The position numbers were made by a program, and so were the translations under genes. The notes under the pieces were generated by a model. The model was given only the letters and a program-made list of their open reading frames with translations, was not told the origin of the DNA and made no database searches. 23,257 nucleotides of DNA from a virus. The DNA lies in the IMG/VR virus record IMGVR_UViG_3300011254_000441, positions 1-23,257 of that record; one strand, 5' to 3'. Positions 9,819 through 21,820 of the stretch are shown one piece after another; the stretch's first letter is position 1; each line of letters begins with the position of its first letter.

Positions 9819-10593
9819 AAATAAAAAAACAGAAATAAACATAGAAAGTCTTAGAAGCAAACTTCTAAAACAAACTGAACAGCATAAGAATGCCCCTAAG
9901 AGAATTAGAGTTGGTATTGAAGGAGATGCTAAGACAGGTAAAACTGGTCTAGCAATGGATATGACAAAGAAAACATTCTATTTAGATGTAGACAACGGTT
10001 CAGTTCCGACTTGGCAAACAAACCATGAATCAACAGATAGAATTATTATTTTCAATCCTGCTGAACATAATGAAGACGGAGAGTTCCTACCTTACGAAAC
10101 TCAAGGAAACATTCGTTCTTTTATTGCGTTGGCAAAACAGACAGCGAAAACAGAAGAGATTGTATTTGTTTGGGATGGCGTAGATACTTGGCTAGATTAC
10201 TGTACACTGTACATGGCAGGAATGGAGACTTCAAGAATGCGACCTATGAAGACTTCTAAGCAACAAGACTGGTTTCATAGAAACCAACCTTTCAAAGAAG
10301 TTATGAAAGAGATGGAAGCAATAGATTGCGACCAAATCTACATAACTCATACTAAGCCACCTTTTAGAGATGAACCTGCCCAACCCATATGGAATCGTTG
10401 GGACTCTCATCTATGGACTGTTCTACAAACGACTCAAAGAAACACACAGAAAGGAATGGAGTACTTTGTTACTGTTAAAAGCAGTAAATACAATCCTTCT
10501 CTTCTTGGTAAAAGAGTTTCTTTCCTTTCAGTTAATCGAACAGGAGAAGTTGTTTGGACTGGGTTCAAAGAATTAAAAGAGGGAAATGTATGA
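9808..10593 (+). CDS. Sak4/RecA-like ATPase (phage AAA_24-type nucleotide-binding protein)
   Basis: The product has 261 residues. The ATG at 9808 follows GAGGTG; a GTG at 9799 is a weaker alternative. After a charged N-terminus, the core begins R-I-R-V-G-I-E-G-D-A-K-T-G-K45-T-G (Walker A). The first acidic strand is F-Y-L-D-V-D-N-G. Walker B is I-V-F-V-W-D123-G-V-D. A sensor-like strand I-Y-I-T-H-T-K-P-P follows. This order matches the single-domain RecA-like Sak4 ATPases of phages, which assist annealing and recombination with an SSB partner. Its closeness to the probable SSB gene fits that role. It overlaps the sliding-clamp gene by four bases. Confidence 0.75.
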   Translation: MMNKNKKTEINIESLRSKLLKQTEQHKNAPKRIRVGIEGDAKTGKTGLAMDMTKKTFYLDVDNGSVPTWQTNHESTDRIIIFNPAEHNEDGEFLPYETQGNIRSFIALAKQTAKTEEIVFVWDGVDTWLDYCTLYMAGMETSRMRPMKTSKQQDWFHRNQPFKEVMKEMEAIDCDQIYITHTKPPFRDEPAQPIWNRWDSHLWTVLQTTQRNTQKGMEYFVTVKSSKYNPSLLGKRVSFLSVNRTGEVVWTGFKELKEGNV

Positions 10594-11375
10594 AATTTAC
10601 AATAGACGCAAAGGATTTTAGAACAGGATTAGAAGACATAATGGGTAGTGGCAAATACGCTCAAACCGGAGGAATCAAAGCCGGTATTTTATCCGAATAT
10701 GTTTTCCTAGACTTGACAGAAAACAACGACGCTAATTTAGCACTATGGAATGGTGATGGTAGTTACATCAACAAAATAGTTCTTGATGCTACAATACTAG
10801 ACGACACTATAAACAATGCAACTGTAAACATCAAAACACTACTTCCCTTCTTGAAAAAAATGTCGGGTGAAATAGAAATAGCAATTCGAGATAGAGTGGT
10901 TATTTCTTCTCTCGGTGATGGTAGTAATACTGAAATTACTTTGCCTAGAGTTAATCAACACCCTCACCACGAAGTTATTCAAAGACTTTACTTAATGGAT
11001 TTAAAGTTGGAAGGTGAAATGCCTCAATTTAATGGTACTTCATTCGAGGGAAGTTTTGAAATGCCTACTTCTGTTTTTAAAGAAGTAATTAACCAATGTG
11101 AATTGATAGGAACAGGGGTCTATAAATTAGATTTTGTTTTCGATAAAACGGATTTAAGTAAGGTTGAGATTTCCTCAACGGTAGTTGGAGTTAAAGGATA
11201 TACTACTACAGTAGATGTAGAAAACGGAAAGGGTTATTCAGCAACAGTGGCTTTTACAGGCCCACTTCATAGATTCTTCAAAGGAGAAACAATTACCTTC
11301 TATGTTAAAGACGAGTTCCCTATACTAATGGTGGGAGAAAACAGGCTTCTAGTAAAAGTGCCTCACACGGAATAA
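10590..11375 (+). CDS. pcn: PCNA-like sliding clamp
   Basis: This ring protein would tether polymerase and other replication enzymes to DNA. The product has 261 residues, near the family's 245-260. The ATG at 10590 overlaps the upstream stop (ATGA) behind GAGGGA; an ATG at 10554 is less likely. The N-terminal M-K-F-T-I-D-A-K-D-F is clamp-like. The protein shows the repeating strand/helix halves of a two-domain clamp, including P-F-L-K-K-M-S-G-E-I-E-I-A-I in the middle and V-F-K-E-V-I-N-Q-C in the second half. The C-terminal K-D-E-F-P-I-L-M-V matches the conserved 'P-L-x-I' segment of PCNA. Sequence drift is high, so the identification rests on fold pattern plus context: clamp loader upstream, polymerase downstream, and PIP boxes in two other proteins. 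Confidence 0.8.
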   Translation: MKFTIDAKDFRTGLEDIMGSGKYAQTGGIKAGILSEYVFLDLTENNDANLALWNGDGSYINKIVLDATILDDTINNATVNIKTLLPFLKKMSGEIEIAIRDRVVISSLGDGSNTEITLPRVNQHPHHEVIQRLYLMDLKLEGEMPQFNGTSFEGSFEMPTSVFKEVINQCELIGTGVYKLDFVFDKTDLSKVEISSTVVGVKGYTTTVDVENGKGYSATVAFTGPLHRFFKGETITFYVKDEFPILMVGENRLLVKVPHTE

Positions 11376-11383
11376 GTGAAAAA

Positions 11384-13129
11384 ATGATAATTACAAATAA
11401 CAATAACAATATTTACCTCTCTTGGAGAGACAACAAAGGAAACAAAGTGATTAAGAATGATACTTACAAGCCTTATTTTTATATTAAAGAAAGTTCTAGA
11501 GAACCTGCTACTTACAAAGTAAGCAAAACAATCATTAGAGACTTTGAATATGAGCGTGGAGACTGGACTAATTTAGAAGGTGACAAACTAAAAAAGGTAT
11601 ATGTTGATATGCCAAAGGATATTTACAAGGCCAAAGAAAACTTTTCTCAAACCTATGAAGCAGATGTTCCCTTTCACTATAGGTATGCAATTGACAACAT
11701 TACTTCTATGCCGGAATACAATATGCGAAAGTGGTATTGGGATATGGAGTGGCAACAAGGTGGAGAACATGATGGAAAAATTACCGCCATTGTTTGTTAT
11801 GATAATTTTGATAAGCAATTTTATACTTGGTCTTGGCAACCTGTTGAAAACAAGAACATTGTAGAACCTACTGTTGAAGAACATAATTGTATTATGTTCA
11901 TGGAAGAAACAGAAGAAGCAATGATTCGTCAATTCTTAATGTGTATTGAAATGTGCGACCCCGACATGTTAATTGCTTGGTTTGGTTTGAAGTTCGATTT
12001 ACCCAAGTTATTAGAAAGGTGTTGCGCTTTAGATATAAACCCACTAGGGATATCACCACTAAGAGTAGTTGATGGTATTTACTTCAAGGATGAAAAGTGG
12101 GTGTTTACTAAGGGAGACGGATATGGCCCAACAGCCCAACCAATAAAGGGTAGAATTACTCTTAACTTGGACTTGGCTTTTGAAAGGCAATGGAATGATG
12201 CCCAAAGAGGAACACTACCTAGCCTATCATTAGACTATGTTTCAAAGACATTATTCGGAGAAGGAAAGCATACCGAGACTAAGTTTCAAGACCCAAATGA
12301 GTTCTACAGAAGAGGTTGGATTGAAGACCCATCAGCCTACTTACAATACGCAATAATAGATGTTGAATTGCTTAGAAAAATAGACGAAGAAAACTTTACT
12401 TCCGAGGCTATTCTTTCTTTACAAAGACTACTTCTAGCACCATTCGATGCTTGTTTCTTTGCATCTAATATGGGTTCTATGTATTTTATGCGTAATGCTT
12501 GGTGGAAAGCACCAACAGGTAGTAAGCCTAAACATAAAGTATGTGATTCATGCGGCTACAAAAACCCCAATGATAAGAAACTAAAAACATGTAAGCGGTG
12601 TAAAGAAAGTCTTTCTTATTCCGGTGCTATGATTTACAATCCGTTGGATGAAAACACTAATGGTTTGCATAACAATGTTGCGGCATTTGATTTTGCAGGA
12701 CTATATCCAAGTATGATTATTGCTAGGAATATTTCTTTTGAAACTAAGAGTAATGTAGAAACCGTATTTGGTGCTGATTTGAATACTCCTCAAAACTTGA
12801 AAAGTGTTGGTGAAGACTACAAAAGAAAAATGTTGTATTACACTACAGAAGAATTGGGACTATTGCCTAAGTCTTTGTTGGCCTTGAAAGACTTGAGAAA
12901 CGAATACAAGGCTAATATGAAAGAGGCTAGAAACAGTGGAGACAAAGAGCAAACTGCTAAGTGGAATAATAATCAAATGGCGGTCAAGCGACTCATGGCA
13001 TCCTTCTACGGAATCCTCGCTTACAAGGGGTTCGGTTGGGCTGATGTTGATTTAGCGGCTAGCATTACTGCTAGTGCGAGAGAGGCGATTAGACTAGCGG
13101 CATTTAAAGCAAAGGAGATGAAAGTATGA
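11384..13129 (+). CDS. polB: Family B DNA polymerase, N-terminal part (exonuclease, palm motifs A and B)
   Basis: The product has 581 residues and ends before the catalytic motif C, which is encoded 2 kb downstream at 15179. Proofreading motifs are present: Exo I W-D120-M-E122, Exo II W-F-G-L-K-F-D205 (the usual Asn is replaced), and Exo III Y322-x-x-x-D326. A four-cysteine zinc knuckle (C387, C390, C403, C406) is inserted just before motif A, D436-F-A-G-L-Y-P-S-M. Motif B reads K535-R-L-M-A-S-F-Y-G, with Ala where family members have Asn. The protein stops after K-A-K-E-M-K-V, exactly where the strand before motif C would begin. It must associate with the downstream part to be a polymerase, like the split PolB of Methanothermobacter. 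No intein ends are visible. Confidence 0.95.
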   Translation: MIITNNNNNIYLSWRDNKGNKVIKNDTYKPYFYIKESSREPATYKVSKTIIRDFEYERGDWTNLEGDKLKKVYVDMPKDIYKAKENFSQTYEADVPFHYRYAIDNITSMPEYNMRKWYWDMEWQQGGEHDGKITAIVCYDNFDKQFYTWSWQPVENKNIVEPTVEEHNCIMFMEETEEAMIRQFLMCIEMCDPDMLIAWFGLKFDLPKLLERCCALDINPLGISPLRVVDGIYFKDEKWVFTKGDGYGPTAQPIKGRITLNLDLAFERQWNDAQRGTLPSLSLDYVSKTLFGEGKHTETKFQDPNEFYRRGWIEDPSAYLQYAIIDVELLRKIDEENFTSEAILSLQRLLLAPFDACFFASNMGSMYFMRNAWWKAPTGSKPKHKVCDSCGYKNPNDKKLKTCKRCKESLSYSGAMIYNPLDENTNGLHNNVAAFDFAGLYPSMIIARNISFETKSNVETVFGADLNTPQNLKSVGEDYKRKMLYYTTEELGLLPKSLLALKDLRNEYKANMKEARNSGDKEQTAKWNNNQMAVKRLMASFYGILAYKGFGWADVDLAASITASAREAIRLAAFKAKEMKV

Positions 13130-13239
13130 AATGTAAAAAACCACTAAAACACAACCCTCAATTTGAAGGAAAGCACCATTGTAAACTATGTGAACAAGAA
13201 GCAAAAGAAGACGCATACAAATACTTAGGTGGTGAATAG
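13126..13239 (+). CDS. Cys/His microprotein
   Basis: The product has 37 residues and starts on the ATGA that overlaps the PolB N-part stop. It contains C3, then H-H-C19-K-L-C22, with His residues nearby, so it could bind one zinc ion. It is basic at the N-terminus and acidic at the C-terminus, and ends in Y-L-G-G-E. It is the first gene in the stretch that separates the two PolB halves. Confidence 0.6.
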   Translation: MKCKKPLKHNPQFEGKHHCKLCEQEAKEDAYKYLGGE

Positions 13240-13240
13240 A

Positions 13241-13585
13241 ATGGGTAGAGGAAAAACCAAAAAATTACACTCCGAAGTTATTCGAGAAGCAATAACAAAA
13301 ACATTAGAAGGTTTAGATATAAATAAAGAATATCCAAAGTCAAAACTCTATGATGAAATTATTGCATCATACCAAGAGATTCACAAAGACAAATATGGGA
13401 AATATAGTTCTCAACTTAGTCATAGAAACAGTAGTCCTAAAAGAAGAGTCTCGCAATTCTTTAATGCAAAAATTTGTAAAGAACATGGTTGGAAAACAGT
13501 TTATAAAAAGAGAGCCTGTTTTATTGATGGTGTTAAAATAAGTTACTTAGAGACCCCATATCTAGTGAGGATTAAAAATGAATAA
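13241..13585 (+). CDS. Basic hypothetical protein, possible DNA-binding
   Basis: The product has 114 residues; the ATG at 13241 has GGTGGTGAATAG just upstream. The protein is strongly basic (M-G-R-G-K-T-K-K at the N-terminus, S-P-K-R-R-V in the middle, V-Y-K-K-R-A). A helical first half (V-I-R-E-A-I-T-K-T-L) is followed by a region with S-K-L-Y-D-E-I and a strand-rich C-terminus. A winged-helix or other DNA-binding fold is likely but not certain. It overlaps the next gene by eight bases. Confidence 0.65.
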   Translation: MGRGKTKKLHSEVIREAITKTLEGLDINKEYPKSKLYDEIIASYQEIHKDKYGKYSSQLSHRNSSPKRRVSQFFNAKICKEHGWKTVYKKRACFIDGVKISYLETPYLVRIKNE

Positions 13586-13778
13586 AATATTTGAAAAATG
13601 GATTATAGATGAAATACAGAAGACTCAAGGGGTTTTTACCGCTAGAGAAATAGTAGAGAGGATTCTTGATAAGAGGGGTACTTCCCGTCATATTGGAGAT
13701 GTCTACTCAGCAACTTGGATTTGTAAGAAGCATTCAAAAAGGATAGGTCGTGGCCTGTTTGTTAAGGAGTCGGTTTGA
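13578..13778 (+). CDS. Small winged-helix-like protein C
   Basis: The product has 66 residues. The segments F-T-A-R-E-I-V-E-R-I-L (helix), S-A-T-W-I-C-K-K-H (recognition-like helix) and R-I-G-R-G-L-F-V (wing) follow the same layout as the two small proteins at 6426 and 6622. It is basic and short enough to be a single winged-helix domain. Its stop overlaps the next start (TGATG). A regulator or DNA-binding accessory protein is likely. Confidence 0.65.
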   Translation: MNKIFEKWIIDEIQKTQGVFTAREIVERILDKRGTSRHIGDVYSATWICKKHSKRIGRGLFVKESV

Positions 13779-13882
13779 TGAGTGACAAAGTAGTAATTTG
13801 CCAAGAATGTAATATCCATCTATATGATAAGGATATTGAAAAGAATAAATGTGTAGCATGTGGCGTGGAGGTGAAGGTGTGA
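13778..13882 (+). CDS. Zinc-ribbon microprotein 1
   Basis: The product has 34 residues. C8-Q-E-C11 and C25-V-A-C28 make a complete four-cysteine zinc ribbon. The tail G-V-E-V-K-V is encoded within the first 21-bp repeat, and the same peptide (G-V-E-V-K-A) ends the methyltransferase. Its stop overlaps the GTG start of the methyltransferase. It probably binds nucleic acid or a protein partner. Confidence 0.7.
   Translation: MSDKVVICQECNIHLYDKDIEKNKCVACGVEVKV
13862..13882 (+). repeat. 21-bp direct repeat, left copy, upstream of the methyltransferase gene
   Basis: GGCGTGGAGGTGAAGGTGTGA. It carries a GGAGGTG ribosome-binding site and a GTGA start/stop overlap. The right copy at 14605-14625 differs at one base, and the copies are 743 bp apart. 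Confidence 0.9.
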
Positions 13883-14625
13883 AGTGTGAAGTGATACAGG
13901 CTGATTGCATCGCTTACATGAAGGGCATGGATAATGAGTGTGTGGATTTAATTTGCACCTCTCCACCATACAAGGCGAACAAGTCCTACGAGTCATGGGA
14001 TTCGTTTGAAGACTATGAGGACTTCGCTGACCAATGGATTGAACAAGCCTCAAGGATTCTTACACCAACAGGCACGATGATGCTTAATGTCGGCTACACC
14101 AAAATTGCTCGCAATGAAACCTTACCATTGACTTATCTTTATCACAGAATTGCCTATAAATATGGACTGAAATTAGTCCAAGAAATTGTATGGAGATACT
14201 TCGGGGGGATGTCATACAAACTGCGCTACACCCACAGAACCGAGCGCATCATGTGGCTTACCAAAGACCCCGATAATTGCACATTCAACCTTGACGATGT
14301 GAGAGTCAAAGAATGGAAAGCGATTGATAAGCGAAACAACCCTCTCGGTAAAAATCCGAGTGATGTTTGGGAAATTAAACGAGTCGTTGGTGGGACTGGT
14401 GCTGTTGATATGAAATACAATCACCCTGCTCAATTCCCAAAGGCTCTTGTTGATAGAATTATCAAAGGTCATTCAAACGAAGGTGACTTGGTGTTCGACC
14501 CCTTCTTAGGAACAGGAACAACTTGTGTTGTCGCTAAAGAACTGAACAGAAATAGTATTGGTTGCGAATTGATTGACGAATACATTGATGTGTGCAAAGA
14601 ACGAGGCGTGGAGGTGAAGGCGTGA
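13879..14625 (+). CDS. Beta-class DNA methyltransferase (likely N4-cytosine)
   Basis: The product has 248 residues from the GTG at 13879, which overlaps the zinc-ribbon stop and follows GGAGGTG. The catalytic motif IV T-S-P-P-Y (27-31) comes first. The SAM-binding motif D-P-F-L-G-T-G-T-T (about 207-215) is near the C-terminus, so the motif order is that of the beta class. T-S-P-P-Y is more typical of N4-cytosine than N6-adenine enzymes. A basic middle part (about 100-190) would be the target-recognition region. No restriction enzyme gene is visible, so it may be an orphan protecting viral DNA. The gene looks more GC-rich (CGC, CGA and CTC codons) than its neighbours and is bracketed by 21-bp repeats, which suggests it was acquired separately. 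Confidence 0.93.
   Translation: MKCEVIQADCIAYMKGMDNECVDLICTSPPYKANKSYESWDSFEDYEDFADQWIEQASRILTPTGTMMLNVGYTKIARNETLPLTYLYHRIAYKYGLKLVQEIVWRYFGGMSYKLRYTHRTERIMWLTKDPDNCTFNLDDVRVKEWKAIDKRNNPLGKNPSDVWEIKRVVGGTGAVDMKYNHPAQFPKALVDRIIKGHSNEGDLVFDPFLGTGTTCVVAKELNRNSIGCELIDEYIDVCKERGVEVKA
14605..14625 (+). repeat. 21-bp direct repeat, right copy, at the end of the methyltransferase gene
   Basis: GGCGTGGAGGTGAAGGCGTGA, identical to 13862-13882 except one base (C for T). In both copies the frame reads G-V-E-V-K then stop, and the stop overlaps a GTG start for the next gene. Confidence 0.9.
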
Positions 14626-14711
14626 CTGCTGAATACTGTAAAAAATGTGGTGCAAAGGTAGTATTGCCAATAGAACACTCCCTAATTTGTAATGGAGATG
14701 ATGAAGAATGA
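14622..14711 (+). CDS. Cys-containing microprotein 2
   Basis: The product has 29 residues, starting at the GTG that overlaps the methyltransferase stop, with GGAGGTG upstream in the right repeat. C6-K-K-C9-G-A plus a later Cys (I-C-N-G-D-D-E-E) suggest a minimal zinc site. The acidic tail overlaps the next start (ATGA). It is very short; translation is supported by coupling at both ends. Confidence 0.5.
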   Translation: MTAEYCKKCGAKVVLPIEHSLICNGDDEE

Positions 14712-14815
14712 TTTGCCATACATGTAGAAAAAGAAAAAGGGTAGTACACCCAAACAAAAGAGAATGCCATAGTTGTATCTCTTGGAAAAATAAAAGGAGA
14801 AATAAAAATGTTTAA
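14708..14815 (+). CDS. Zinc-ribbon microprotein 3, highly basic
   Basis: The product has 35 residues. C3-H-T-C6 and C20-H-S-C23 form a CxxC/CxxC zinc ribbon, surrounded by Arg/Lys-rich stretches (R-K-R-K-R, W-K-N-K-R-R). It starts on an ATGA overlap and its end overlaps the next gene by eight bases. The charge suggests nucleic-acid binding. Confidence 0.6.
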   Translation: MICHTCRKRKRVVHPNKRECHSCISWKNKRRNKNV

Positions 14816-14963
14816 TTTAGATGAATTGATAGAAGTACAAAGAACAACCAACGACACTCTTCAAGAGTTACTGGATAATGTGAAACGAAGCAATAAAATA
14901 TTGATGATGGTTAATATTGTCAATATTGCAACTATCGTTACATTGCTAGTGGTGGTACTATGA
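14808..14963 (+). CDS. Small single-pass membrane protein
   Basis: The product has 51 residues, starting at ATG behind AAAGGAGAAATAAAA. The N-terminal 30 residues are amphipathic (L-D-E-L-I-E-V-Q, L-Q-E-L-L-D-N-V-K). A hydrophobic C-terminal stretch of about 20 residues (I-L-M-M-V-N-I-V ... V-T-L-L-V-V-V-L) should span a membrane. The layout, soluble helix then C-terminal anchor, is that of a tail-anchored peptide. It overlaps the next start (ATGA). Confidence 0.65.
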   Translation: MFNLDELIEVQRTTNDTLQELLDNVKRSNKILMMVNIVNIATIVTLLVVVL

Positions 14964-15178
14964 AGTTGCCTTTGTATGAAGAAGTAGAGTCTTTTTTGTA
15001 TTGGTTTCATGGCGAAAACATCATTATTGAAACAATAATGCCATACTATGCTTATTTTATGTATTTACTATTGATAATAGCGATAGTAAAGAATATATTC
15101 TACGCCCCAATAAAAGTCTTAAGAAAGAAAAACAAGAAAGAAAACTTTTGGAGTCAATACGATACAGGAGGAATATAA
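14960..15178 (+). CDS. Small membrane protein
   Basis: The product has 72 residues and starts on the ATGA overlap. A hydrophobic segment Y-A-Y-F-M-Y-L-L-L-I-I-A-I-V around residues 30-46 is followed by a basic cytoplasmic-type tail (K-V-L-R-K-K-N-K-K), so one transmembrane helix is expected. Directly after its stop comes the ATG of the PolB C-terminal part, whose ribosome-binding site (AGGAGGA) lies inside the end of this gene. Together with the preceding membrane protein it may act at the host envelope, but nothing specific can be said. Confidence 0.7.
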   Translation: MKLPLYEEVESFLYWFHGENIIIETIMPYYAYFMYLLLIIAIVKNIFYAPIKVLRKKNKKENFWSQYDTGGI

Positions 15179-16054
15179 ATGGAAGTAGTTTACGGACACA
15201 CAGATTCAATCTACATCAAAGTAGATTCTATAGAACAAGCACATGAAAGCCTAAAAGATATAAACGACTATGTAAGGGAGTCCTTCCCTAATATACTAGG
15301 CTTAGAAGAACACCCCGTAGTTCTAGAGTTTGAAAAGTATTATTCATCTCTAGGAGTAGGTGTAACTAAGAATAGAAACGCAGGACTAATCTCATGGGAA
15401 GACGGTGTATTCTTGGATGAGCCTAAGTTTACAATGACCGGCTTCACTGCCAAGAGAGTTTCCGAAAGTCCACTTTCTAAAAGAATACAAACAGAGGTAT
15501 TGAAAAGGTGGGTAGATGGTAAGGGAGAGGATGATATTGTTAATTATTGTCGAGAAGAATACTTGAAGACACTTAACGGAGAAACACCCATTACTGATGT
15601 TGTTAAGAGAAGTAGACTTAAAGAAAACAGGTTTGCATTAAAATGTTCTTGTGGGAAAAAATACAATCTATTAGAGATATATGATTTACAATATTGCAGT
15701 AAATGTGCAAAACTAAAAAAGACCTTTACTACATTAGACGGTAAAAGGCCAAGTGTCGGAAGTGGTATTGCAGGTATGCTTTACGGACATGAAGAACTTG
15801 ATTTTACATATGATGATTCATATGTTTTTATGAAAATAATTCCTATTGGGTTCTATACTAATCCAATTACTGATGAAAGAAAATCGGCTGAATGGGTTGC
15901 AGGAACAACCTTTAGTGATTTAGAAAGGTTTAGTCCCGATTGGGCGCACTACTCCGAACAAGTAATTAGTAAAGCCAAACCTATTTTTGATGCAATGGGT
16001 TGGCAAACATCAAGTATTAAAAACAAACAAAGAAAATTAGAAGAATGGTGGTAA
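15179..16054 (+). CDS. polB: Family B DNA polymerase, C-terminal part (motif C, thumb, PIP box)
   Basis: The product has 291 residues, starting at ATG behind AGGAGGA. It opens M-E-V-V-Y-G-H-T-D9-S, the strand and turn of motif C, with His in place of the first Asp of Y-G-D-T-D-S; the second, catalytic Asp is kept. It continues with F-E-K-Y-Y-S-S-L and K-N-R-N-A-G-L (a variant of the K-K-R-Y motif), then a four-cysteine knuckle (C156, C158, C173, C176) inserted in the thumb, and a typical thumb end (H-Y-S-E-Q-V-I-S-K-A ... I-F-D-A-M-G-W). The last eight residues Q-R-K-L-E-E-W-W are a perfect PCNA-interaction box. Joined to the product of 11384-13129 it gives a complete PolB with almost no residue lost at the break. 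Confidence 0.95.
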   Translation: MEVVYGHTDSIYIKVDSIEQAHESLKDINDYVRESFPNILGLEEHPVVLEFEKYYSSLGVGVTKNRNAGLISWEDGVFLDEPKFTMTGFTAKRVSESPLSKRIQTEVLKRWVDGKGEDDIVNYCREEYLKTLNGETPITDVVKRSRLKENRFALKCSCGKKYNLLEIYDLQYCSKCAKLKKTFTTLDGKRPSVGSGIAGMLYGHEELDFTYDDSYVFMKIIPIGFYTNPITDERKSAEWVAGTTFSDLERFSPDWAHYSEQVISKAKPIFDAMGWQTSSIKNKQRKLEEWW

Positions 16055-16056
16055 AA

Positions 16057-16977
16057 ATGAATGAATATGAAACCGAAATAAAAAGCATGAAAGAATACAC
16101 ATATCAGTGGATGCCGGAAAACTACAGTGACCCGACAGAACCTATATTGAAAATAACAAAGTCCTCTTTAGGAACATTCGATTGGTGTCCTAAAAAATAT
16201 GATTTTAGTTATCAACAGCGTTTGCCTCAAGACCAAACAGAAGCAATGCGTAAAGGAACTATAATGCACAACGCTAGAGAAGACTTTTTCAATGACTTTG
16301 ACATTAAGAAGGCCGAGACAATGACAGAAGAAGAGATATTAGATTATTGCTCTAGCCTGTTTCCTATAGACGACTATGCCGAAGACTACCAAACCATTGC
16401 TGTTTTTGAATCGCAACGATTTATTGATGCAGTAGCGGAAAACAAAACACATGAATATTTGCCGGTTTGCAATGAAGGTAAGTTTGATTGCGAGGTGACT
16501 ATTCCTCAAGGCCCATACAAAGGTGGTGCATGGAATAACTATGAAGAGTTTAGTTTGAGCCGTGATTATGTAGTACACCTACAAGGAATCATTGATAGAA
16601 TATTTCAAGAAGACAACGGCTACATTCCTATGGAGTTTAAGACTGGCCCTTGGAAAGACTACAAGGCGACAGGTATGAGAAAAGAAATGGCTTTCTACAA
16701 AATACTGATAGACAATGCTAGTGATTTGGTGTTGCGTAATGCAGGTCTTGAACCGAATGTGCCTGTAAGTCATTGGTCTTGGTACTATCCAATATCAAAT
16801 CATATACATTGCGAGCCTTCTAAGAAAAGGAATGAGACTTCTGTAATGAATAATATTGCTAGGCTTATTCATGCTTATGAACAGAAACTTTTTGAAACTA
16901 AGTTCTACTACAAAACATGCGCCCACTGTTCTTACTTTGGACTATGTGATGCGGCTGATGAAAATACATGGTTGTGA
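16057..16977 (+). CDS. Cas4/RecB-like PD-(D/E)XK nuclease with Fe-S cysteines
   Basis: The product has 306 residues; the ATG at 16057 follows GGTGG, and an in-frame ATG at 16045 is possible but overlaps PolB. The order is that of Cas4/AddB-type nucleases: C44 in F-D-W-C-P-K-K-Y, H71 in G-T-I-M-H-N-A-R, the active site D180 and E193-F-K195 (I-I-D ... M-E-F-K-T), then C288, C291 and C297 near the C-terminus. Four cysteines in this arrangement usually hold a 4Fe-4S cluster, so all expected ligands are present. Such enzymes resect DNA ends. No cas1, cas2 or CRISPR repeats are in the window, so a role in viral recombination or replication is more likely than adaptation. Confidence 0.88.
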   Translation: MNEYETEIKSMKEYTYQWMPENYSDPTEPILKITKSSLGTFDWCPKKYDFSYQQRLPQDQTEAMRKGTIMHNAREDFFNDFDIKKAETMTEEEILDYCSSLFPIDDYAEDYQTIAVFESQRFIDAVAENKTHEYLPVCNEGKFDCEVTIPQGPYKGGAWNNYEEFSLSRDYVVHLQGIIDRIFQEDNGYIPMEFKTGPWKDYKATGMRKEMAFYKILIDNASDLVLRNAGLEPNVPVSHWSWYYPISNHIHCEPSKKRNETSVMNNIARLIHAYEQKLFETKFYYKTCAHCSYFGLCDAADENTWL

Positions 16978-20988: not shown

Positions 20989-21222
20989 ATGATAACATGG
21001 GAAAATACATTTATAGTGTTTGATGTAACGAAAGGGCCGAAAGTAATTATTGAAACTCTCAATACTTACGGTGAAGAAGGATGGGAATGTGCGAGTATGC
21101 TCACTGTAGCAAACACGAACATTGTCGCCTTTCTAAAGCGAAAGCAGGGTGAAGAACCTAAAGGCAACGACGAAGCAGAAGAGATTAGTAAATTGTGGGC
21201 CACAAATGGTAAAGGAAAGTGA
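20989..21222 (+). CDS. Small DUF4177-like protein
   Basis: The product has 77 residues; the ATG at 20989 follows AAAAGGTGA, and a GTG at 20980 is an alternative start. The core strand-helix-strand pattern (T-F-I-V-F-D-V, L-N-T-Y-G-E-E-G-W-E-C, N-I-V-A-F-L-K-R) resembles the DUF4177 fold, in which a G-x-E-G-W-E turn is typical. The C-terminus is acidic and disordered. It ends five bases before the exonuclease start. The function is unknown in the family. Confidence 0.65.
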   Translation: MITWENTFIVFDVTKGPKVIIETLNTYGEEGWECASMLTVANTNIVAFLKRKQGEEPKGNDEAEEISKLWATNGKGK

Positions 21223-21226
21223 TTAC

Positions 21227-21820
21227 ATGAATGTAATGGCTTTGGATATTGAAACCAAGAATATGTCGCATGAAATAGGCGGCTTTGGTAATACCCACAT
21301 GTTTCAAGTATCAACAGTTGCAACATGGGATGGTAATGTTGGAACAGTATATGTTGATGAGCCGGTAAACACTTTTGGAAAAAGCGGTCACATAGTTAAA
21401 TCATTAAGTGATTTAAAATATGATTTAGATGAACACTTTGAGAAGGGTGGAGTAATATTAGGACATAACATTGTTTCCTTTGACCTACCCATATTAAAAA
21501 ACTCAATGGATATCTACTGTATTAGAAAGTACTTAGATGAGAAGAGGTATATTGACACTAGCCGACTATTGACGGCAGGTCATGGCGAGAGATTTAGGCT
21601 ACAAAATCTAGGTGAAAATACGCTCAAACAGGATAAACTAATGGATAGTGCTGATGCACCTAAACTTTGGAAAATGGGCCGCTATGACGAAGTAGTAGAG
21701 TATTGTTTGAAAGACACTCAAATCGTTTATGACCTTTGGAAGTATGGTAAAGACAACGGTATTGTAAAGGCGTTTTCGATTGAGAAAGAAGAATTTGTAG
21801 AATTGGAGGTAGATTGGTAA
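21227..21820 (+). CDS. DnaQ-like DEDDy 3'-5' exonuclease
   Basis: The product has 197 residues; the ATG at 21227 has GGAAAG upstream and begins right before the first catalytic motif. D7-I-E9-T is Exo I, G-H-N-I-V-S-F-D86 is Exo II, and Y159-C-L-K-D163 is Exo III of the DEDDy type, so all catalytic residues are present. The order resembles the exonuclease domain of PolB-type enzymes standing alone. It could provide extra proofreading or end-trimming, which may matter because the polymerase's own Exo II motif is altered. It overlaps the next start by one base (TAATG). Confidence 0.9.
   Translation: MNVMALDIETKNMSHEIGGFGNTHMFQVSTVATWDGNVGTVYVDEPVNTFGKSGHIVKSLSDLKYDLDEHFEKGGVILGHNIVSFDLPILKNSMDIYCIRKYLDEKRYIDTSRLLTAGHGERFRLQNLGENTLKQDKLMDSADAPKLWKMGRYDEVVEYCLKDTQIVYDLWKYGKDNGIVKAFSIEKEEFVELEVDW

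Follow-up and report, generated by a model that had tools for sequence, protein, structure and literature searches.

A family B DNA polymerase encoded by two genes, and the shifting gene content between them, in a marine virus clade

The 23,257-bp virus record IMGVR_UViG_3300011254_000441 (IMG/VR), considered here over its full length and referred to as the window, encodes a family B DNA polymerase (PolB) in two genes. The first, PolB-N, carries the exonuclease domain, motif A and the fingers; the second, PolB-C, starts at motif C and is separated from the first by 2,049 bp of other genes (Table 1). The split is a fixed trait of a whole virus clade and is not special to the window genome. The gap between the halves is a hotspot of gene turnover, in which content and length shift while the break stays constant.

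The polymerase halves and the genes between them

Exonuclease residues (D120, E122, D205, Y322 and D326), motif A (D436-LYPS) and motif B (K535...Y542-G543) were identified in PolB-N. This protein terminates in the helix preceding motif C and ends A-K-E-M-K-V-stop. PolB-C starts MEVVYGHTDS, with AGGAGGA directly before it. Positions 40-193 of the Pfam DNA_pol_B profile fall on PolB-N and positions 222-344 on PolB-C. The PolB-N profile match reaches to about residue 524 in Deep Vent Pol, and the PolB-C match begins near residue 536 in KOD/9N-type Pol; therefore, the cut lies past the helix that follows motif B and ahead of the motif C hairpin. A preliminary description of this locus had placed the split just before motif C and had given PolB-C an AGGAGGA of its own, and its coordinates and reading are correct on both points. 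It had also listed nine small genes and a methyltransferase in the gap. All of these genes are indeed on one strand, packed with stop/start overlaps, but they comprise eight small open reading frames (ORFs) and one methyltransferase, nine in all.

Table 1. Features of the split PolB locus (positions in the window)
Feature	Position	Strand	Basis or remark
Neighbour upstream of PolB-N, at sliding-clamp position	10554..11375	+	Position only
PolB-N, 581 aa: N-terminal domain, 3'-5' exonuclease, motif A, fingers with motif B	11384..13129	+	Pfam PF00136/PF03104, PHROG 262
PolB-N 3' end, GCAAAGGAGATGAAAGTATGA (A-K-E-M-K-V-stop)	13109..13129	+	Holds Shine-Dalgarno and ATGA start overlap of next gene
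Zinc-ribbon-like ORF, 37 aa, MKCKKPLKHN..., directly after PolB-N	13126..13239	+	
114-aa ORF, family F7, function unassigned	13241..13585	+	
66-aa ORF, family F0, winged-helix-like by eye	13578..13778	+	No Pfam match
34-aa zinc-ribbon-like ORF	13778..13882	+	First copy of the methyltransferase-flanking repeat forms its 3' end (GGCGTGGAGGTGAAGGTGTGA)
Direct repeat, copy 1, GGCGTGGAGGTGAAGGTGTGA	13862..13882	+	
N4/N6 DNA methyltransferase, GTG start overlapping upstream TGA	13879..14625	+	Pfam N6_N4_Mtase, E 6.8e-54
Direct repeat, copy 2, GGCGTGGAGGTGAAGGCGTGA	14605..14625	+	20/21 identical to copy 1
29-aa zinc-ribbon-like ORF, GTG start	14622..14711	+	
35-aa zinc-ribbon-like ORF	14708..14815	+	
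51-aa single-pass membrane-like protein, family F1	14808..14963	+	
72-aa membrane-like ORF, family F8, directly upstream of PolB-C	14960..15178	+	3' end carries AGGAGGA of PolB-C
PolB-C, 291 aa: motif C hairpin (YGHTDS), remaining palm, thumb	15179..16054	+	Pfam PF00136
PD-(D/E)XK nuclease, neighbour downstream of PolB-C	16045..16977	+	Pfam

AlphaFold2 (AF2) predicts PolB-N alone with a mean predicted local distance difference test score (pLDDT) of 88.8, the weak part being the motif A region (425-436), and PolB-C alone with a mean of 76.6, poor at the first residues and at 49-94. When these models were used in Foldseek searches, both halves matched archaeal PolB. The low-confidence parts of the single-chain models fit a palm that is completed only by both chains. 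Judging from sequence, PolB is very probably a non-covalent two-chain polymerase, with both genes in one co-directional cluster. In such a heterodimer, PolB-N would contribute the exonuclease, motif A and fingers, and PolB-C the motif C hairpin, the remaining palm and the thumb. The break falls in the loop that links the helix following motif B to the hairpin of motif C, where cutting would probably cost the fold little.

A constant break point in related viruses

IMG/VR was scanned with the N and C halves of the window plus a distant N half, yielding 214 dereplicated loci, of which 176 have both halves (L-numbers, e.g., L003 and L313, denote related loci in this survey). The break point is identical in 176/176 of these, whereas the gap ranges from -1 to 2,819 bp (median 856). 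In 156 of the 176 loci a start codon overlaps the stop of PolB-N, and 171 have ATG as the PolB-C start. Starts other than ATG occur in L289, L198, L206, L307 and L319 as GTG or TTG, except that L289 has no standard start and shows ATC in the corresponding position. In one locus, L313, the insert is absent altogether, and N and C overlap as TAATG. The preliminary description, which saw an accessory-gene block inserted into the palm, is only partly borne out. The block is present in the window, but it is not fixed among relatives, where content and length (none to 2.8 kb) vary at a constant break point. The block did not arrive in one piece and so break the gene; it is a changing series of single-gene insertions, and in L313 the break exists without any insert.

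Residues of the exonuclease, motif A, motif B and motif C are invariant among the 57-58 diverse members compared. Comparison of the window with its relatives gives ratios of nonsynonymous to synonymous substitution rates (dN/dS) of 0.05-0.09 for both halves, and both are under strong purifying selection. Motif C reads YGHTDS in 176/176 loci, with histidine in place of the first aspartate of most B-family polymerases (YGDTDS). A zinc-ribbon-like CxC...CxxC at PolB-C residues 156-176 is conserved across the clade, and its C156 and C158 are invariant among diverse members. The lineage of the window also has its own CxxC...CxxC insert before motif A (PolB-N residues ~386-409), which most relatives lack.

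All of the data are assembled contigs, and one apparent chimera (L219, below) looks misassembled. Nevertheless, the chance that metagenome misassembly or decay into a pseudogene accounts for the split is negligible. Misassembly, a concern raised with the preliminary description, is refuted by the recurrence of one break point in 176 loci from many samples, and the low dN/dS and invariant catalytic residues of both halves are not those of a pseudogene. The possibility of an intact polB elsewhere was also addressed. The window holds only its two pieces, and in 19 long related records (67-98 kb) no PolB was found beyond the two pieces that each contains. An apparent open frame of 948-987 aa in three long records proved to be an artefact, with in-frame stops present.

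The nearest intact enzymes found are those of a marine virus clade (L151, L344-L400), with 22-37% identity in the best segments. There, M-[EK]-V-[VI]-Y-G-H-T-D-S occurs inside one ORF of ~749 aa. An annotated phage collection contained distant and intact relatives only (haloviruses, T4-like phages). A scan of 84,980 cellular genomes gave one weak fragment match and one close relative that is itself split, NZMJ01000151.1 (L404). This contig was binned as Maricaulis sp., an alphaproteobacterium, and is probably a mis-binned virus.

Motif C is a classical intein site in archaeal PolB. The break adjoins this motif, and N and C joined in alignment give nearly native spacing (22 vs. 21 residues). 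Both points would suit a rejoining of the halves, whether through trans-splicing of the proteins, through removal of an unrecognised intron from the RNA or through excision of the block at the DNA level. We consider such rejoining very unlikely. As first described, intein ends are lacking: neither half carries an intein-like extension in the loci inspected, and split intein halves on exteins were not found, N stopping at the helix after motif B and C beginning M[EKDQ]VVYGHTDS. An Rfam scan covering the window gave no match to group I or group II intron RNA, and L313 is without any gap. The gap is coding-dense (86% ORF coverage on the plus strand), unrelated in content between lineages and out of frame in two thirds of loci. 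PolB-C also begins at a start codon of its own, preceded in the window by a separate ribosome-binding sequence. The end of N (M-[EK]-V) resembles the beginning of C (M-[EK]-V-V), and a target-site duplication left by the original split was considered as the source. This idea is suggestive only, given the near-native length on joining and the presence of MEVVYGHTDS in intact homologues.

Besides the split PolB, the window encodes a chaperonin (Cpn60), an ATP-dependent ligase, a clamp-loader-like AAA protein (RFC), and PD-(D/E)XK and ERCC4-type nucleases. Hallmarks of magroviruses are a 90-110 kb genome, PolB, a clamp loader, an ATP-dependent ligase and a chaperonin. The window has Cpn60, ligase, RFC and split PolB, and many related records are 84-98 kb in length. 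From this gene content and size, the clade apparently belongs to the Magrovirales, an order linked to marine Poseidoniales archaea (PMC10768690, PMC12999244). Its viruses thus appear to have archaeal hosts.

Gene turnover in the gap

Gain and loss were counted by pairwise comparison of the 214 loci, and the counts are not corrected for shared ancestry. There are 144 insertion events in 184 kb of gap vs. 121 in 2,244 kb of flanks (0.78 vs. 0.054 per kb). The ratio is 7.8 under strict filters, and overall the gap is 8-15 times denser in events. Genes with HNH or GIY-YIG endonuclease features were identified in the gap of 22 loci vs. 3 loci elsewhere, in 12 times more DNA. The gap HNH proteins include those of L012 and L136, and the GIY-YIG proteins those of L058 and L127. 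In the flanks, genes tend to be gained and lost at stop/start overlaps and Shine-Dalgarno sequences, with short direct repeats left behind.

The most constant gap resident is the F1 protein. Its 105 matches in the dereplicated set are all in the PolB gap and none elsewhere, and it usually lies near PolB-C. This distribution would suit a role for the constant small gap proteins (F1 and the coiled-coil-like F2) as further subunits that bridge or place the polymerase halves, for which the gap would be kept. We regard this as unlikely, as many loci have no F1 and L313 has no gap gene. The 37-aa zinc-ribbon-like ORF that follows PolB-N in the window is found in relatives after inserted cassettes.

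Locus L003 is ~95-96% identical to the window over most of its length but lacks the methyltransferase. In the window this gene is flanked by 21-bp direct repeats spaced 743 bp apart, which correspond to the 3' end of the upstream gene and include a Shine-Dalgarno sequence; a single copy in L003, GGCTTGGAGGTGACGGCGTGA, corresponds to both. The window's methyltransferase is an inserted cassette. L003 carries an extra insert of 730 bp after PolB-N, and the PolB-N end adjoining this swapped cassette shows 4 changes in its last 27 nt, whereas the preceding 123 nt are identical. It is as if the PolB-N end had been overwritten with the cassette in this pair. The idea that cassette swaps generally leave extra changes in the final 30 nt of PolB-N was rejected, since on average pairs with the same and with different downstream genes could not be told apart. 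Such an excess is seen in individual pairs only (window/L003, L032/L035 and L035/L173).

Genes directly after PolB-N often terminate in a copy of its last ~21 nt (GCAAAGGAGATGAAAGTATGA). These genes are mutually unrelated and include HNH proteins, a GIY-YIG protein, and zinc-ribbon-like and other unassigned ORFs. AKEM[KE][VI]-type ends occur on 22 of 638 gap ORFs vs. 1 of 3,393 others in the same loci (ORFs of at least 40 aa; Fisher p 3.5e-17, relatedness uncorrected). A motif scan of IMG/VR found 126 occurrences: 110 are the PolB-N end, 12 are ends of gap cassettes downstream of PolB-N, 2 are cassette ends on contigs cut at the edge, and 2 are due to chance. For ~9 of the 22 cases an empty site was identified: in a relative, PolB-N is immediately followed by the sequence found downstream of the second copy (90-100% over 60 nt). 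Two occupied relatives (L003 and L010) have their empty counterpart in the window. Relatives include occupied and empty alleles with precise insertion, a feature of free-standing homing loci.

We consider it reasonably probable that PolB is a two-chain polymerase whose break has become a recurrent site of cassette exchange, with homing endonucleases the likely driver. A gene enters immediately downstream of PolB-N, usually with its start codon on the PolB-N stop (ATGA or TAATG), and its own end often repeats the final ~21-24 nt of PolB-N; pairs of occupied and empty sites show this pattern. The copied end carries the next ribosome-binding site, and therefore downstream translation would survive. 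Newcomers leave both the end of PolB-N and the following ribosome-binding site intact, which would be why the gap tolerates them. Endonucleases of the HNH/GIY-YIG homing type may cut near the conserved PolB-N 3' end, putatively near AAGGAGATGAAAGTATGA. Repair could then insert the endonuclease or other genes, overwrite the PolB-N end and sometimes carry along the downstream half, giving chimeric polymerases. Cutting of the PolB-N end would thus account at once for the hotspot, for the copied ends and for the exchanged halves. More tentatively, the polB-N 3' end could itself be a recombination site of ~24 nt, serving as the end of the N half, as the next gene's ribosome-binding site and as the repeat for cassette entry and exit, with C halves exchanged as modules.

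Several points weigh against exchange driven by endonucleases at the break of a two-chain enzyme. A recognisable endonuclease is present in only ~10% of loci, and no endonuclease gene was found in the window's own gap. The cleavage site at the PolB-N end is putative. The repeated end contains a Shine-Dalgarno sequence, and its similarity could partly reflect selection for coupled translation. In L313 the halves are split with no insert between them, which means that insertion need not have been the origin of the split. As for the polymerase, the structural models cover the single chains, and the heterodimer is a proposal.

A competing explanation, to which we give an appreciable if less than even chance, retains the two-chain polymerase but treats the gap as merely the loosest site of turnover. 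Illegitimate recombination would occur at Shine-Dalgarno and stop-start sequences, with endonucleases as passengers and AKEMKV ends maintained by selection. Recombination at ribosome-binding sites is visible genome-wide at a lower rate, and Shine-Dalgarno-like motifs occur in 33 of 45 junction repeats (at least 12 bp) outside the gap. Consistent with this passive turnover, the methyltransferase repeat (GGAGGTGA) differs from the PolB-N sequence, and endonucleases are found in a minority of gaps. It is less readily reconciled with the near restriction of AKEM[KE][VI]-type ends to gap ORFs, with identity between unrelated proteins that extends beyond the Shine-Dalgarno core, with the density of events in the gap relative to the flanks, and with the PolB-N end that changed along with a swapped cassette.

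Exchanged halves and known split genes

Identities of PolB-N and PolB-C correlate across loci (r 0.88). In L056, N is 99% like L058 and C is 98% like L004, and these share only ~55-63% with the other partner. Divergence of the upstream neighbour follows N and that of the downstream nuclease follows C. Compared with their nearest relatives, the L056 halves have dN/dS of 0.03 (N) and 0.05 (C), so both are constrained. In L069, C is 100% like L004 and N is 88% like L079. The chimeras switch either at the end of PolB-N or within the gap, and comparable discordance was not found between N and the upstream gene (0/129), inside C (0/117) or between C and the downstream gene (0/163). These comparisons indicate that polymerase halves have been exchanged between lineages at the break, with two good cases and one doubtful. 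The doubtful one (L219/L321/L157) was set aside as a probable misassembly on a long contig. L219 (IMGVR_UViG_3300021958_000021) is 184,733 bp, about twice the usual genome length, and is 100% identical to two different relatives from the same sample series on either side of the switch point. Discordance between N1 and N2 gave two more chimera-like signals, which stem from unequal rates along PolB-N and not from recombination.

The PolB of Methanothermobacter is a cellular enzyme whose genes are far apart, and both of its polypeptides are needed for activity. The preliminary description named it as the known split case, and this holds, but split PolB is also known in T4-like phages. The Methanothermobacter thermautotrophicus enzyme is likewise a natural two-polypeptide PolB (Kelman, 1999; cited in PMC7776575), and it is likened here to the present one by organisation, not by break position. 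Gene 43 of the Aeromonas T4-like phages 25 and 44RR (43A/43B) also encodes a B-family replicative polymerase in two genes. Either a free-standing seg-type endonuclease gene or untranslated DNA lies between the halves, which co-purify and are active (PMC2988022). That system involves two phages and a single element in the gap, in contrast to the multi-gene exchanging block described here, and again the likeness drawn is one of organisation. PolB-NTD and PolB-CTD are labelled separately, as here, on the map of the magrovirus Poseidoniales virus YSH_150918 (Aoguangviridae, Magrovirales) in its International Committee on Taxonomy of Viruses (ICTV) profile (PMC10768690). Break point, gap content, universality, cassettes and chimeras are not analysed in that profile.

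Genes are also found in pieces as a result of homing endonucleases (Aeh1 nrdA/mobE; T4 topoisomerase gene 60 with mobA). In these cases a free-standing endonuclease gene splits an essential gene, which still works as two chains, and T4 mobE overlaps the upstream stop codon, as gap genes often do here. Unlike those genes, the PolB split is fixed in its clade and mostly without an endonuclease, and the inserted genes copy the 3' end of the host gene. Free-standing endonucleases at the borders of essential genes have been tied to recombination between phages (Barth, Dunham & Seed, 2023; PMC10448857). In comparison with such islands of homing endonuclease genes, the boundary here runs through the polymerase itself, with half-enzymes exchanged.

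Given the ICTV magrovirus map and the split B-family polymerases elsewhere, the split itself is not new. Use of the gap as a cassette site appears new: we found no description of a fixed clade-wide break point, of copied PolB-N ends at a cassette site or of exchanged halves in the literature searched, which did not take in Philosof 2017, Zhou 2023 and Prabhu 2025. Naturally split polymerases are rarities, and this one is fixed across a widespread marine virus group and cut directly before the catalytic motif C. From sequence data alone, the gap allows one to ask how mobile genes can settle in an essential enzyme that stays functional. It also connects homing-type endonucleases, in a form open to testing, with the exchange of replication genes as modules in archaeal viruses. 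The chimeric contigs imply that polymerase halves differing by ~45% can work together, and the pair may be a ready-made two-chain polymerase for protein engineering. If the polB-N 3' end does act as a short recombination site, a replicative polymerase evolves here as two interchangeable modules.

With regard to other genes of the window, the neighbour upstream of PolB-N was considered as PCNA given its position, but no database match supports this identity, and it was not adopted. A second DnaQ/PolB-exonuclease-like protein (RNase H fold) is encoded downstream, at window positions 21149-21820, separate from the exonuclease domain of PolB-N.

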